Below are positions 44,724 to 62,631 of a stretch of DNA of 64,000 nt, piece after piece (position 1 is the first letter of the stretch; each line of letters starts with the position of its first letter). The notes beneath the pieces were generated by a model. The model saw only the letters and a program-made list of their open reading frames with translations. It was not told where the DNA came from and made no database searches. This DNA comes from Roseospira marina (GTDB lineage: Bacteria; Pseudomonadota; Alphaproteobacteria; Rhodospirillales; Rhodospirillaceae): assembly GCF_014197855.1 (NCBI RefSeq), contig NZ_JACIGJ010000004.1, positions 1-64,000 on the forward strand. Direction: 5' to 3'. The position numbers and the translations under genes were made by a program.

Positions 44724-46400
44724 ATGACACATACGCCCGGCACTGGCGTGCCGGACGGGCTGGTTTTCGTGCCCCTTGGCGGGACCGGAGAAATCGGCAT
44801 GAACCTGAACCTGTACGGGTTTCAGGGCCGATGGCTCATGGTTGATCTGGGGATTACGTTCGGCAACGAGACCACGCCTGGAATTGATGTGATGATGCCG
44901 GATCCGGCGTTCATCGAAGACCGGCTGGACGCTCTGGACGGTATCGTCATCACGCACGCCCACGAGGATCACCTGGGGGCCGTCACGTATCTGTGGCCCT
45001 GGATCCGCAAACCCGTTTACGCCTCGCCGTTCGCGGCCGCGTTCCTGCGCGTGAAGCTGGAAGAGGAAGGGCTCCAAAACGAGGTGCCGCTGCACGAGAT
45101 CCCCTTGGGCTCGCGCTTTTCCGTCGGCCCCTTCGACATCGAGATGATCGGGACCACGCATTCGATCCCTGAGCCGAACGCGCTGGCGATCCGGACCGCG
45201 GCGGGCAATGTCCTGCACACGGCGGACTGGAAGTTCGATCCCGCGCCGCAGATCGGCGCGGCGGCGGATAAGGAGGCGCTGCGCCGTCTGGGTGACGAGG
45301 GCGTGCTGGCCATGGTCGGCGACAGCACGAACATCTTCGCCCAGGAGCATTCCGGGTCGGAGGGGGACGTGCGCGCCGCCTTGATCGAGGTGGTGGGGCG
45401 CAACACGACCGGACAGGTCGCCGTCGCCTGCTTCGCGTCCAACGTCGCACGAATGGAAAGCGTGGCGGTGGCCGCGCGCGAGAACGGCCGGCATGCGGTG
45501 CTGGTCGGGCGCTCGCTGTATCGCATGAACGACACCGCGCGCCGCTGCGGCTATCTGGGCGATCTTCCGGCGTTCCTGTCGGAGGAGGAGGCGGCCGAAC
45601 TGCCCGCCGACAAGGTCCTGTACGTCTGCACCGGCAGCCAGGGTGAGCCGCGCGCCGCTTTGCCGCGCATCGCGGGCGGCAGCCATCGCTCGGTCCGCCT
45701 GGGTGAGGGCGACACCGTGATCTTCTCGTCCCGGATCATACCGGGCAACGAGCGGTCCATCTTCACCATGCAGAACCGCTTGGCGGAGGCCGGAGTCGAG
45801 ATCATCACGGCGCGCGATGCCCCCATCCATGTCTCGGGCCACCCGTCGCGGCCGGAGGTGGAGGAAATGTACCGGCTGGTGCGGCCCCGCGTGGCCGTTC
45901 CGGTCCACGGTGAATCTCTTCATCTGCGCGAGCACGCCCGCGTGGCGCAAGGCTGCGGCGTGGAGCATACGATCCTGATCGGGGATGGCGACGTGCTGCG
46001 CCTGGATGCCGATCCGCCGCGCGTGGTGGATCAGGCCCAGACCGGCCTGCTGGGTCTGGACGGCGAGCGTCTGGTGCCCATGTCGAGTCAGATCCTTCGC
46101 GACCGCCGCCGTATGATGAACAACGGCGCGGCCACGGTGACGCTGGTTCTGAATGGCAAGGGCGGTCTGGTGTCCGAGCCCATCGTGACCGCGCGCGGCC
46201 TGCTGGACCCGGACGAGGACCGCGAGGACCTGGATACGCTCATCCGTCAGATTCGGACGGCGGTGAACCAGTTGGACCGGCGCGCGCTGGACGACGACGA
46301 CACCGTGGTGGACCGCACCCGGCGCGCTGTCGGGCGGTTTTTCCGGGGCAGCCAGAACCGGCGGCCCGTCACCGACATTCATGTGGTGCGCGTCGCGTGA
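44724..46400 (+). CDS. rnj: ribonuclease J
   Basis: 558 residues. Metallo-beta-lactamase motif ITHAHEDHLGA (HAHEDH at 78-83), later metal His in GTTHSIPEPNALAI and Asp in GDSTN, and the beta-CASP domain with SGHPSRPEVEEMYRL. Alphaproteobacterial RNase J has 5'-3' exonuclease activity and matures rRNA. GAGAGGAG precedes the ATG. A perfect 14-bp hairpin follows immediately after the stop codon. Confidence 0.95.
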   Translation: MTHTPGTGVPDGLVFVPLGGTGEIGMNLNLYGFQGRWLMVDLGITFGNETTPGIDVMMPDPAFIEDRLDALDGIVITHAHEDHLGAVTYLWPWIRKPVYASPFAAAFLRVKLEEEGLQNEVPLHEIPLGSRFSVGPFDIEMIGTTHSIPEPNALAIRTAAGNVLHTADWKFDPAPQIGAAADKEALRRLGDEGVLAMVGDSTNIFAQEHSGSEGDVRAALIEVVGRNTTGQVAVACFASNVARMESVAVAARENGRHAVLVGRSLYRMNDTARRCGYLGDLPAFLSEEEAAELPADKVLYVCTGSQGEPRAALPRIAGGSHRSVRLGEGDTVIFSSRIIPGNERSIFTMQNRLAEAGVEIITARDAPIHVSGHPSRPEVEEMYRLVRPRVAVPVHGESLHLREHARVAQGCGVEHTILIGDGDVLRLDADPPRVVDQAQTGLLGLDGERLVPMSSQILRDRRRMMNNGAATVTLVLNGKGGLVSEPIVTARGLLDPDEDREDLDTLIRQIRTAVNQLDRRALDDDDTVVDRTRRAVGRFFRGSQNRRPVTDIHVVRVA

Positions 46401-58146: not shown

Positions 58147-58201
58147 CGACCGAATCCCGCACCGCTTAGCGGGCGATCCGGTCCGAAACCACCCGGCGAT
58201 A

Positions 58202-58230
58202 TTGACACACCGGCCCGAGGCGCGTAGACA
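58202..58230 (+). promoter_or_regulatory. sigma70-type promoter of the ffh operon
   Basis: TTGACA (58202-58207), exactly 17 bases, TAGACA (58225-58230). The -35 box is a perfect consensus. A leader of about 175 bases follows, containing a CCCTCG/CGAGGG hairpin, before ffh. Confidence 0.75.
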
Positions 58231-58410
58231 TGCGACCCTTCCCTCGGGCCGGGGTCCTGGCACGAGGGCGTTCACGCACCGCATTCGGTCGCATCTCCAC
58301 CGCCAGGGCGGTCCGTCAGTCCGCGAGGGTTCGCGCACTGGCGCCATACGTGTTTGCGTGGAGATTTGCGTTCGGGGGCACGGTCGCACGAGCAAAAGGT
58401 ACGCTGGCCC

Positions 58411-60084
58411 ATGTTCGAAGGTCTGTCCGGTCGTCTCGGCGATGTCCTGGAAAAGCTGCGCGGTAAGGGCAGCATCACCCAGGACGACGTCAACGCCGCC
58501 ATGCGCGAGGTTCGCATCGCGCTGCTGGAGGCGGACGTGGCCCTGCCGGTGGTCAAAGACTTCGTCAACACGGTGAAGGAACGGGCCGTCGGTCAGGAGG
58601 TCATCAAGTCGGTGACCCCGGGCCAGATGGTCATCAAGATCGTCCACGATGCCCTGGTCGAGATGCTGTCCGGGCGCATCGGGTCCCAGGTGGAGGACGA
58701 GGAGGACGACGCCGAGGCCCGCAAGCGTGACCGGGTGGCGGAGTCCCTGAACCTCAACGCCACGCCGCCGGTGCCGATCCTGATGGTCGGCCTCCAGGGC
58801 TCGGGTAAGACCACGACCTCGGCCAAGATCGGCCTGCGCCTGAAAAGCGCGATGCGCAAGAAGGTGCTGATGGCCTCGCTGGACGTGCAGCGTCCGGCCG
58901 CCCAGCATCAGCTTGCTGTGCTGGGCGAACAGACTGGGGTGGATACCCTGCCCATCATTATGGGGCAGCAGCCGGTCCAGATCGCCCGTCGCGCGCTCGA
59001 CGAGGGCCGCAAGGGTGGCTACGACGTGGTCATTCTGGACACCGCCGGCCGGCTCGCCATCGACGAGGAGTTGATGGAGGAGGTCGCCGAGGTTCGCAAG
59101 GTGACCAACCCGGCCGAAACGCTGCTCGTCACCGACGCCATGATCGGTCAGGACGCGGTGACCGTCGCGACCGAGTTTAACGACAAGGTCGGCATCTCCG
59201 GCATTGTGTTGACGCGCGTGGATGGCGACGCGCGCGGCGGTGCCGCCCTGTCGATGCGCGCCATCACCGGCCGCCCCATCAAGCTGATGGGCGTGGGCGA
59301 GAAGATGGACGCGCTGGAGGAGTTCCAGGCCGACCGCATCGCCGGCCGCATCCTCGGCATGGGCGACGTCGTCAGTCTGGTCGAAAAGGCCGCCCAGTCC
59401 ATCCAGATGGACGAGGCGGAGAAGATTGCCCGCCGCATGGAGAAGGGCAAGTTCGACCTGGAGGACTTGCTCAGCCAGCTCCGGCAGGTGCGCCGGATGG
59501 GCGACATCAAGGGCCTGCTCGGCCTCATGCCGGGCGTCGCCAAGATGAAGAAGCAGATCGACGCCGCGAACATCGACGATTCGATGATCAAGCGTCAGGA
59601 GGCGGTCATCCTGTCGATGACCCTGCGCGAACGGCGTCATCCGGAGATCATCAAGGCCTCCCGCAAGAAGCGTATCGCGGCCGGCGCCGGCACCACGGTG
59701 CCGGAGGTCAACAAGCTGCTGAAACAGCATCAGCAGATGGCCATGATGATGAAAAAGATGAAGAAAATGGGCGGCATGAAGGGCATGGCCGAACGCATGG
59801 GTGGCCTATTCGGCGGCGGGGCCGGCGGCATGGGCGACATGGCCGGGCTCGGTGACATGGACCCCAAGGAACTGGCCGCCATGGCGAAGAAGGGCGAGCT
59901 GCCGCCCGAACTGGCGGAGCAGATCGCCGACGGCAAAATGCCCCCCGGTTTGGGTGGCGACCTGGGCGGCGGTGCGGGCGGCGCCGGTCTGCCGCCGGGC
60001 CTCGGCAGCGCGGCCGGTCTGCCCGGGCGCTCCGGCCTGCCGACAAACCTGCTGACCCAGCGGCCGAAGGGCCGCAAGAGATGA
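58411..60084 (+). CDS. ffh: signal recognition particle protein Ffh
   Basis: 557 residues. N domain, then the GTPase motifs GLQGSGKTTTSAKIG, DTAGR and TRVDGDARGG, and the Met-rich M domain that binds signal peptides and SRP RNA (MMMKKMKKMGGMKGMAERMGG, about residues 448-470). The C-terminal 100 residues are a Gly/Pro/Leu-rich extension. Ends RPKGRKR, which is encoded in the first of three 29-bp repeats. First gene of ffh-rpsP-rimM-trmD-rplS. Confidence 0.98.
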   Translation: MFEGLSGRLGDVLEKLRGKGSITQDDVNAAMREVRIALLEADVALPVVKDFVNTVKERAVGQEVIKSVTPGQMVIKIVHDALVEMLSGRIGSQVEDEEDDAEARKRDRVAESLNLNATPPVPILMVGLQGSGKTTTSAKIGLRLKSAMRKKVLMASLDVQRPAAQHQLAVLGEQTGVDTLPIIMGQQPVQIARRALDEGRKGGYDVVILDTAGRLAIDEELMEEVAEVRKVTNPAETLLVTDAMIGQDAVTVATEFNDKVGISGIVLTRVDGDARGGAALSMRAITGRPIKLMGVGEKMDALEEFQADRIAGRILGMGDVVSLVEKAAQSIQMDEAEKIARRMEKGKFDLEDLLSQLRQVRRMGDIKGLLGLMPGVAKMKKQIDAANIDDSMIKRQEAVILSMTLRERRHPEIIKASRKKRIAAGAGTTVPEVNKLLKQHQQMAMMMKKMKKMGGMKGMAERMGGLFGGGAGGMGDMAGLGDMDPKELAAMAKKGELPPELAEQIADGKMPPGLGGDLGGGAGGAGLPPGLGSAAGLPGRSGLPTNLLTQRPKGRKR

Positions 60085-60113
60085 ATCTGAGGCCGAAGGG
60101 CCGCAAGAGATGA
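60081..60113 (+). CDS. mini-ORF 1 in the ffh repeat
   Basis: ATG at 60081 overlaps the ffh stop (ATGA). It encodes MNLRPKGRKR and stops at 60111-60113. It may be translated by termination-reinitiation after ffh, or be only a by-product of the repeat. No ribosome binding site of its own is needed for coupling. Confidence 0.3.
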   Translation: MNLRPKGRKR

Positions 60114-60142
60114 ATCTGAGGCCGAAGGGCCGCAAGAGATGA
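60110..60142 (+). CDS. mini-ORF 2 in the ffh repeat
   Basis: Identical peptide MNLRPKGRKR; its ATG overlaps the stop of mini-ORF 1 by the same ATGA junction. Confidence 0.3.
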   Translation: MNLRPKGRKR

Positions 60143-60171
60143 ATCTGAGGCCCAAGGGGCGCCCGCGTTGA
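60139..60171 (+). CDS. mini-ORF 3 in the ffh repeat
   Basis: Encodes MNLRPKGRPR, ending in the diverged fourth unit at 60169-60171. It overlaps mini-ORF 2 by ATGA. About 100 bases remain before rpsP. Confidence 0.3.
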   Translation: MNLRPKGRPR

Positions 60172-60273
60172 CCCGCGACCCAGCGGCCTTAAAACGACAC
60201 ACCAGCGGCGTTTGGCCGTTGGCGAGCCCCACAACAGGTTCAAAGACCTAAACCCCAAGGAGTTCCACGTCCC

Positions 60274-60654
60274 ATGTCCCTTAAGATTCGTCTGGCCCGT
60301 GGCGGTGCCAAGAAGCGTCCGTTCTACCGCATCGTGCTGGCCGACTCCCGTGCCCCGCGCGACGGCCGCTTCATCGAGAAGCTGGGCACCTACAACCCGG
60401 TTCTGCCGCGTGAGAACGAGGAGCGCATCCGCCTGAAGGAAGAGCGCATCCGTCACTGGATCGCCAACGGCGCCCAGCCGACCGACCGCGTCGCCAAGTT
60501 CCTGGCGGAGGCCGGCCTGATGGATCCGCGTCCGCGCACGGAGCAGACCAAGAAGAACCAGCCCAAGGCCAAGGCGCAGGAGCGTCTGCGCGAGGCTCGC
60601 GAAAAGGCTGAAGCCGCAGCGGCGGCTGCCGCCGAGGCCGAGGCCGGCGAGTAA
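60274..60654 (+). CDS. rpsP: 30S ribosomal protein bS16
   Basis: 126 residues. [42 protein letters not shown] is classic bS16 (seen as [18 protein letters not shown]). The family usually has about 80-90 residues; the last 40 here are an Ala/Glu/Lys-rich helical extension, frequent in alphaproteobacteria. AAGGAG lies ten bases before the ATG. Confidence 0.98.
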
Positions 60655-60684
60655 GAGCAGGGCGAACGTCACGGGGACACGGGC

Positions 60685-61302
60685 ATGGTCGACCGCGTGT
60701 GCGTGGGAGTGATCGTGGGCGTCCATGGCGTGCGCGGCGCCGTGCGGGTGAAGAGTTTCACCGCCGAGCCCGAGGACGTCGGCGCTTACGGCCCGGTGTC
60801 CACCGAGGATGGCGCGCGGTCGTGGGCCCTGAAGGTCGTCGGTTCGGCCAAGGGCGTTGTCATTGTCCAGTTGGACGGGGTGCGCGACCGCACCACGGCC
60901 GAGGGGTTGAAAGGTGTCCGCCTGTACGTCCCCCGCTCGGCGCTGCCGCCGCCGGAGGACGAGGAGGAGTTCTACCACGCCGACCTCGTCGGGCTGGCGG
61001 TGGAGCACGAGAGCGGGGAGCGCATCGGCACGGTGCGCGCGGTCCATGACTTCGGCGCCGGCGACATGCTGGAAGTGGCCCCGTCCGCCGATCCGGCCGA
61101 TGCCGCCGGTGGGGGCCGAGCGATCATGATTCCCTTCACCCGCTCCGCCGTGCCGGTGGTGGATCTGAAGGGGGCGCGGCTCGTCGTGGCGCCGTTGCCG
61201 GGCCTACTGGATCCGGCACCGGTCGGCGGGGACCCGGACGATTGCGAGGGATCGGACGGTCCTCCGGACAGCCCCTCTGGGGGCGATACGGCCGATGGCT
61301 GA
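60685..61302 (+). CDS. rimM: ribosome maturation factor RimM
   Basis: 205 residues. N-terminal RimM domain ([18 protein letters not shown]) and PRC-barrel domain ([21 protein letters not shown]). Needed for 30S head assembly; binds uS19. The C-terminal 30 residues are Asp/Gly/Pro-rich. Overlaps trmD by 8 bases. Confidence 0.96.
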
Positions 61303-62014
61303 GGACACCCCTCCGTGCTGGACGGCGATGGTCCTGACGTTGTTTCCGGAGATGTTTCCGGGTCCGTTGGGGCTCTCGCTGGCCGGCAAGGCCCTCACGG
61401 ATGGTGTGTGGGCGCTGCGGACGGCGGATATCCGGGACTACGCCCGCGACCGTCACCGCACCGTGGATGACACACCGTTCGGCGGCGGTGCCGGGATGGT
61501 CATGCGGCCCGACGTGGTCAGCGACGCCATCGCGGCCAACCATGACCCGGCGGAGGGCCGCCGTTTGATCTACCTGTCGCCCCGTGGGCGGCGGCTCGAT
61601 CAGCCGCTGGTGCGGGAGTTGGCGGCGGGGCCGGGGGTGACCCTGGTCTGCGGCCGGTACGAGGGTCTGGACCAGCGCGTTCTGGACGCCTGGGCCATGG
61701 ACGAGGTCAGCGTCGGCGATGTCGTCCTCTCCGGGGGCGAGACGGCGGCGCTGGTGCTGCTGGACGCGGTGGCGCGGCTGCTGCCCGGTGTGACCGGCAA
61801 GGTCGAATCGCTGGAAGACGAAAGCTTCGAGCACGGCCTGCTGGAGTACCCGCACTACACCCGACCCCGGGAGTGGAGCGGGCGGTCCGTGCCGGAGGTC
61901 TTGATCTCCGGCCACCACGGGCGCGTCGCCCAGTGGCGGCGGGAGCAGGCCGAGGCGGTCACCCGCGAGCGGCGGCCCGACCTGTGGGCGCGCTATGTCG
62001 CGGGAGAAGAGTAG
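61295..62014 (+). CDS. trmD: tRNA (guanine-N1)-methyltransferase
   Basis: 239 residues. SPOUT fold with the deep knot: [31 protein letters not shown] and [18 protein letters not shown]. It methylates G37 of tRNAs to prevent frameshifting. Start overlaps the rimM end, so it is coupled. Confidence 0.97.
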
Positions 62015-62107
62015 GGCGGAACGGGCCACTGCACCGGAACAAACCGCTTTCCTCCGGGCGGAGGCCAGCGTATGAGAGGGGCCCGCGCGCGGACCCCTCA
62101 ACGAGAC

Positions 62108-62132
62108 GGTCCCGGTGGGACCCAGGCTTTTT
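62108..62132 (+). terminator. terminator-like hairpin in the trmD-rplS leader
   Basis: GGTCCC (62108-62113) and GGGACC (62117-62122) form a 6-bp stem; after CAGGC comes TTTTT (62128-62132). It lies 60 bases before rplS within a 180-base gap. It may attenuate readthrough rather than end transcription. Confidence 0.4.
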
Positions 62133-62193
62133 AGCCCCAAAACCCTGTAGCCAATGAAAACCAACCAAGATTGATGCGAAAGGATCCCGGATC

Positions 62194-62631
62194 ATGAACC
62201 TCATTGAGCAGCTCGAAAAAGAGCAGATGGACAAGGCCCTCGAGGCACGCGGCGTGCCCGAGTTCGCGCCCGGTGACACCGTCAAGGTTCACCTGAAGGT
62301 CGTCGAGGGCACCCGCAGCCGTATTCAGGTCTACGAGGGCGTTGTGATCGCCCGTCGGAATGCGGCCTTCAACAGCACCTTCACGGTGCGCAAGATTTCC
62401 TTCGGCGAGGGCGTGGAGCGCGTGTTCCCGCTGTACGCGCCGACCATCGACCGGATCGAGGTCGTTCGTCGCGGTAAAGTCCGGCGCGCGAAGCTGTACT
62501 ACCTGCGCGGCCGTCGCGGCCGGTCGGCCCGCATCGTCGAGGACGGCACCGCCACGCAGAAGGCGCTGTCGCACGAGCGGCAGGTCAGCAAGGAGCGCAA
62601 GGAAGCCGCCACCGCCGCCAAGGGCGAGTAA
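62194..62631 (+). CDS. rplS: 50S ribosomal protein bL19
   Basis: 145 residues. [33 protein letters not shown] and [34 protein letters not shown] are diagnostic (seen as [14 protein letters not shown] and [10 protein letters not shown]). Located at the subunit interface. Has a Lys/Ala-rich tail. Last gene of the ffh-rplS run before a terminator. Confidence 0.98.

Follow-up and report, generated by a model that had tools for sequence, protein, structure and literature searches.

A 29-bp stop-spanning tandem repeat with ATGA-linked mini-ORFs at the end of ffh, probably a gene-end minisatellite

The end of ffh in Roseospira marina is repeated in tandem. A 29-bp unit that contains the last ffh codons and the stop codon occurs in several copies, and the copies form three mini-ORFs linked by ATGA; the presence of both the array and the linked mini-ORFs was confirmed. 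With a probability of roughly 0.77, the array is a neutral or nearly neutral, lineage-specific gene-end minisatellite, and its ATGA chain is a by-product. An earlier note on this DNA had offered a neutral minisatellite as the simple alternative to a functional chain. That reading is favored here, since the copy number is one in four of the five congeners read and the duplicated end of the fifth (G003) has no ATG.

The repeat array at the ffh-rpsP junction

The window is the whole stretch of DNA that was analyzed (64,000 nucleotides), located on contig C4 of a draft genome (G000; 4.6 Mb, 57 contigs). In the window, ffh (58411-60084) is followed by rpsP (60274), rimM, trmD, and rplS, each backed by Pfam. 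The ffh start at 58411 is our choice of ATG; the listed ORF opens further upstream. The junction contains the following features.

58411-60084, + strand: ffh (SRP54 GTPase), an ORF with Pfam SRP54, SRP54_N, and SRP_SPB; stop codon TGA at 60082-60084
60053-60081, + strand: unit 1, TGACCCAGC + GGCCGAAGGGCCGCAAGAGA, coding within ffh (from the sequence; 58-nt direct repeat family at 29-nt spacing)
60062-60148, + strand: three perfect tandem copies of the 29-bp unit GGCCGAAGGGCCGCAAGAGATGAATCTGA (Tandem Repeats Finder)
60081-60113, + strand: mini-ORF 1, MNLRPKGRKR, by translation; ATGA overlap with the ffh stop
60110-60142, + strand: mini-ORF 2, MNLRPKGRKR, by translation; ATGA overlap
60139-60171, + strand: mini-ORF 3, MNLRPKGRPR, by translation; ATGA overlap; stop codon TGA at 60169-60171
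60140-60168, + strand: unit 4, TGAATCTGA + GGCCCAAGGGGCGCCCGCGT, diverged and probably the oldest unit (from the sequence and the congener alignment)
60257-60262, + strand: AAGGAG, a Shine-Dalgarno-like candidate site of rpsP, 11 nt before its ATG
60274-60654, + strand: rpsP (ribosomal protein S16), an ORF with Pfam Ribosomal_S16

Tandem Repeats Finder reported the array at 60062-60162 with a period of 29, 3.5 copies, 97% match, and a score of 188. The perfect unit starts at 60062, 60091, and 60120, and a partial, diverged fourth copy follows from 60149; the perfect repetition of the ffh end described in the earlier note is thus present. When phased on TGA, the array consists of four units starting at 60053, 60082, 60111, and 60140. 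The TGA of unit 1 is out of frame in ffh (CTG ACC). Units 1 and 4 are identical at 19 of the 29 positions, and units 2 and 3 are identical hybrids whose first 9 nt resemble unit 4 and whose last 20 nt resemble unit 1 (both counted by eye). The divergence of units 1 and 4, together with the identity of the hybrids, points to an older duplication followed by a recent expansion of the hybrid. The three peptides and their ATGA joints translate as the earlier note had given them, and the third derives mostly from the diverged unit. Its phrase "recent expansion or selection" is supported in its first half, for the three perfect units, and not in its second.

The stop-spanning self-match of the ffh end scored 67, and no shuffled gene end reached a score of 14 in three rounds of 1,246 ends (codons were shuffled before the stop, and a dinucleotide-preserving shuffle was used after it). 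A dispersed or mobile repeat was considered and rejected. The 23-mer GGCCGAAGGGCCGCAAGAGATGA, searched with at most 3 mismatches, has three sites in the G000 assembly, all in the ffh array, and a junction 28-mer, also with at most 3 mismatches, was found in 1 of 73 family genomes, G000 itself. The exact 23-mer had no match in a search of genome contigs from which near genomes may be left out.

Rfam gave no match at the gathering threshold anywhere in the window, and no promoter-like site was found in 58200-62200. Between ffh and rpsP, a terminator-like site was found on the - strand (60211-60199) but none on the + strand. In G000, G003, and G050, the second copy is in the -1 frame of ffh. The idea that ribosomes enter the repeat from ffh by a programmed -1 frameshift was rejected as unsupported, since no slippery heptamer was visible before the G000 stop (by eye).

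Copy number in relatives and recurrence at gene ends

A single ffh end was present in G001, G002, G004, and G005. G003 had two ffh ends at a distance of 29 bp, both with TAG as the stop and neither with an ATG, and the ATGA chain was absent from all five congeners. The copy number across species is therefore 1 in four congeners, 2 in G003, and 4 units in G000. The earlier note had held that random copy number and frame-breaking changes in close relatives, with no ribosome density past the ffh stop, would speak against its chain; on the comparative half, the relatives carry single copies in four cases of five and a broken chain in G003. Kinship was taken from pairwise nucleotide identity over ffh and rpsP, with no tree built: 0.919 for G003-G002, 0.904 for G005-G001, 0.882 for G000-G004, and 0.874 for G003-G004. 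Each of the duplicated genomes, G000 and G003, has a single-copy nearest relative, so the copy number differs between nearest relatives. RpsP of G000 is 85-91% identical to that of the congeners and at best 79% identical to that of a named genome; its named relatives are mostly alphaproteobacteria.

The duplications in G000 and G003 may represent either two events or one event with losses. The single copy of G002 has the GGCCC seen in second copies; a contraction would explain this, though it amounts to a single base. A single ancestral duplication surviving in decayed form in G004 (28-nt offset) was rejected, as its match was equalled by 197 of 2,000 shuffles. The flank after unit 4 (TGACCCGCG, from 60169) resembles the G004 flank after the single ffh end (TAACCCGCG). 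This likeness suggests that unit 4 is probably the original ffh gene end.

A two-step origin would account for the array. In the first step, an ancestral out-of-frame TGACCC, within CTG ACC CAG, would have preceded by 29 nt a second TGACCC formed by the ffh stop and its flank, and a replication slip between these short repeats would have produced a 29-bp duplication. G004 still shows TGACCC (out of frame) and TAACCC at a spacing of 29 nt, which would provide both a plausible short-repeat pair for the slip and a reason for the 3n+2 period. In the second step, which can be read from the units, the two copies appear to have diverged before a hybrid unit expanded to three identical copies. Each copy brings the basic RPKGRKR tail of ffh and a stop codon, so the tail is kept and the repeat has no obvious selective cost. 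With a unit length of 3n+2 (29) and an A at the end of the codon preceding TGA, every stop is overlapped by an ATG whose frame is closed at the stop of the next copy. This overlap is automatic, and the ATGA chain would thus be a by-product.

The ends of other ffh genes were also surveyed. Among the matches listed, the best self-match was a tandem copy across the stop, with a score of at least 15, in 4 of 232 readable ffh ends: G000, G003, and G050 at 29 bp, and G042 at 14 bp. No ffh was obtained at 14 of the 246 loci in this survey, and some genomes occurred twice; each locus was represented by its best self-match alone, and the matches listed are the best 28 of 232. A weaker self-match across the stop in L047 (score 13, offset 32) was left out of the count. 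G050 (L020), from another family of the order, carries a 29-bp duplication of the ffh end, LPPMR-stop. In G042 (L184), a 14-bp unit with TAAAC occurs three times across the stop. The three longest ffh-end duplications share the period of exactly 29, and two of them may share an ancestor. This identity, which includes another family, counts against a plain minisatellite; it is striking, and was taken as chance given at most three independent events. We rejected ffh as a hotspot, as 4 of 232 ffh ends is no clear excess over 13 per 1,247 G000 genes, a comparison in which the thresholds differ between scans and the gene caller is crude. Three distinct arrays were found in 745 other gene ends, two of them at ffh (the G003 ffh end was scanned twice).

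Gene-end stutter is a recurring accident in G000. In 1.64 of its 4.6 Mb (1,247 genes, called by a crude GC3-based caller), 13 stop-spanning arrays with a score of at least 14 were found, and the ffh array had the top score (67; next 22.5). As a control, the same 1.64 Mb contained 36 noncoding arrays, 2 mixed arrays, and 73 coding arrays, of which 66 keep the frame. These counts indicate that slippage is general where the frame is free. Five tandem copies of the last codons and stop were also found at ctaG/cox11 (L317, contig C3, gene 45609-46220 and about 115 bp after it). Their CTTCGACGCCACCTGAGGCGCCCG-like unit has spacings of 25, 24, 24, and 24, with the stop near 46220, and lacks ATG; TGATG appears only in the final, altered copy. 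This array (score 72) was filed as noncoding in the array scan. ctaG was found in three of the six genus genomes, including G000, and has a single end in G003 and G004.

Other arrays were observed in the same genome. A near-perfect 50-bp noncoding tandem repeat at C2:423486-423632 (score 84.5) is the strongest with a period that is not a multiple of three. Two CRISPR-like arrays, with periods of about 74 and 66 bp (by eye), are located at C4:387641-388417 and C2:401727-402160.

RNA folding, ribosome relay, and the 3n+2 period

A role in RNA structure is possible and is the strongest rival, although we regard it as improbable. In this proposal, the palindromic unit GCGGCC-GAAG-GGCCGC would form hairpins around the ffh stop, shielding rpsP from ribosomes that read on or protecting the mRNA; the palindrome copies would be kept for that purpose, and the peptides would be irrelevant. 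The predicted fold of the junction is indeed more stable than shuffles (z -3.15 against 200 shuffles), and this z of about -3, which could mean selection on RNA, counts against the minisatellite. From -30 to +45 around the stop, z was -2.7 in G000, -3.5 in G004, -5.6 in G003, and -4.4 in G002, but no such fold was predicted in G001 and G005 (0.7 and 0.1). From +3 to +48 after the stop, the values were -1.2 in G000, -3.5 in G004, -4.2 in G003, -1.2 in G002, -0.5 in G005, and 1.0 in G001. In G003 and G004 (L003 and L004), the ffh tail is predicted to pair with downstream sequence, placing the stop in a hairpin loop. Structures after stops are described as widespread, and as insulating where reinitiation is harmful, in the part of the source drawn on here (PMC7518266). 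However, the palindrome also encodes the RPKGR tail and so exists without selection on RNA, and with the array left out the fold of the window is unremarkable (z -0.62).

A second proposal, that of the earlier note, is that ribosomes leaving ffh reinitiate at each ATGA and make three short basic peptides, with the copy number tuning rpsP. We judge this quite unlikely as a whole. The array does have three perfect ATGA overlaps, as in a termination-reinitiation pair, and an overlap of -4 is given as the commonest spacing of same-strand prokaryotic gene pairs in the portions of two papers used here (PMC10666635, PMC12548453). AAGG stands about 10 nt before every mini-ATG, and the predicted openness of the mini-ORF starts (mean unpaired 0.31-0.49) is like that of the rpsP start (0.40). 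Low-level reinitiation on the putative mini-ORFs is therefore possible. Delivery of ribosomes to rpsP is another matter. The last mini-ORF stop lies 102 nt before the rpsP start, and rpsP has its own AAGGAG. The measurements excerpted from PMC10666635 have coupling mostly lost by an intergenic distance of 20-38 nt; at a gap of 38 nt, reinitiation fell by 80-90% in two E. coli pairs and was abolished in a third. Given this range, the 102-nt gap, and the separate AAGGAG, the chain is unlikely to deliver ribosomes to rpsP. Some reinitiation on the mini-ORFs may occur and should not feed rpsP. The absence of the chain from all five congeners also stands against the relay. Control of rpsP by a ribosome relay is thus unlikely, and the same holds for the suggestion that the chain tunes rpsP expression.

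A second array in G000 speaks for a relay elsewhere. At C4:81898-81950 (L148:17898-17950) on the minus strand, a 14-bp array encodes three 5-codon ORFs, VSPAP, MSPVP, and MKPAP, and its GTGA/ATGA links lead directly from one glycosyltransferase gene to the start of another, which belongs to glycosyltransferase family 9. As judged from its layout, it is a better relay case than ffh, because the next gene starts at its last ATGA. In the congeners G001 and G005, the two glycosyltransferase genes overlap by ATGACTGA, and no chain was found at this junction in the five congeners (G002, G003, and G004 by eye). Repeated ATGA was also seen outside called genes, in an 11-bp CCATGACCGTT-like array at C4:378015-378053.

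It could further be proposed that gene-end arrays with a 3n+2 period are kept because NTGA reinitiation is preserved, so that G000 carries a family of self-made, MIRU-like mini-ORF relays (ffh-rpsP, 29 bp; the glycosyltransferase pair, 14 bp). We hold this to be very unlikely. Among 1,246 G000 gene ends, 725 end in TGA, and 351 of these can start an overlapping ORF (133 ATGA, 141 GTGA, and 77 TTGA). When the downstream sequence was shuffled, one-link NTGA chains numbered 81.8 against 72 observed, and two-link chains 6.0 against 6. Three-link chains occurred at 2 of 1,245 ends against 0.4 expected, namely the ffh and glycosyltransferase arrays; this excess over shuffles counts against the minisatellite. 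Enrichment of NTGA chains in G000 was accordingly rejected for one and two links, and three links are too few to judge. Five of 29 low-threshold arrays in G000 form an NTGA mini-ORF link.

The period bias itself also counts against the minisatellite, for a plain neutral process would give one third. At a low threshold, 25 of 41 stop-spanning arrays in 1,978 gene ends of G000 and its relatives had a 3n+2 period (loci below 58% GC were dropped; shuffles give about one per class). In a stricter set, the proportion was 9 of 13 (probability 0.009 under one third). The periods were often 11, 14, or 17 bp, and the copied stop was often put in the -1 frame. Part of this bias may be general, given that 15 of 36 noncoding arrays also have a 3n+2 period. 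Captured hidden stops can also explain part of it: near gene ends, the +1 frame has 2.65% off-frame stops per codon, twice the 1.31% of the -1 frame. However, a stop triplet lies one period upstream in only 5 of the 25 arrays, so most of the bias is unexplained by such capture. Against the minisatellite, too, the older copy differs from the ffh tail mostly at synonymous positions in the -1 frame (by eye; very small counts), as if it had once been read in that frame.

That the exact number of perfect copies is wrong, the repeat having been collapsed or expanded in a draft of 57 contigs, is extremely improbable: the sequence is a draft assembly of one strain, but the diverged unit and G003 point to real duplication, and the array of about 100 bp fits within one short read, a length that the usual short read spans.

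Comparison with known systems

No paper joining ffh, rpsP, and a tandem repeat was found in the literature search. No stop-spanning tandem duplication was described in the titles and abstract beginnings of broader searches with partial listings, a scope that does not imply absence from print.

The ffh junction resembles ribosome termination structures: in four of the six genus genomes, a stable fold is predicted around the stop of ffh. It differs in that the fold is missing in G001 and G005 and overlaps the ffh coding sequence. With termination-reinitiation ATGA pairs, the array shares an ATGA overlap at each junction, but no gene starts within about 20-40 nt of its last stop (rpsP is 102 nt away), and its 10-codon ORFs are copies of the ffh tail.

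MIRUs are dispersed at many genome loci, whereas the ffh unit is 29 bp, visibly derived from ffh, and found at a single locus. The last ffh mini-ORF also stops short of the next gene, and overlap is confined to the ffh side. The likeness lies in units that are short and contain an ORF which a -4 overlap couples to a gene, as described for MIRUs in the part of PMC12548453 cited here. Identical units stand in a row between two genes in both cases: ffh and rpsP here, and senX3 and regX3 in strain H37Rv, for which an excerpt of PMC4213456 gives three identical 77-bp MIRUs. MIRUs appear mobile and insert at start codons, at least according to the portions of PMC12548453 and PMC4213456 used. If the relay proposal were true, it would show that the tail of a gene can itself give rise to new reinitiation cassettes, much as MIRUs supply them by insertion.

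Minisatellites, or VNTRs, are tandem arrays of near-identical units longer than those of microsatellites. The ffh array fits a bacterial minisatellite. It has head-to-tail perfect units (29 bp, three perfect and one diverged in G000), a period not divisible by 3, placed at a gene end with no frame to keep, and a copy number that differs between related species (at the species level, with one genome per species). It differs in that its unit holds a stop codon and the last ffh codons. Why stop-spanning repeats prefer a 3n+2 period (25 of 41) is a small question that is testable in any large set of GC-rich genomes. The array itself is an ordinary but tidy case: a gene end stutters without harm to the protein, each copy with its own stop, and a designed-looking ATGA chain can come from one slip of 3n+2 length.
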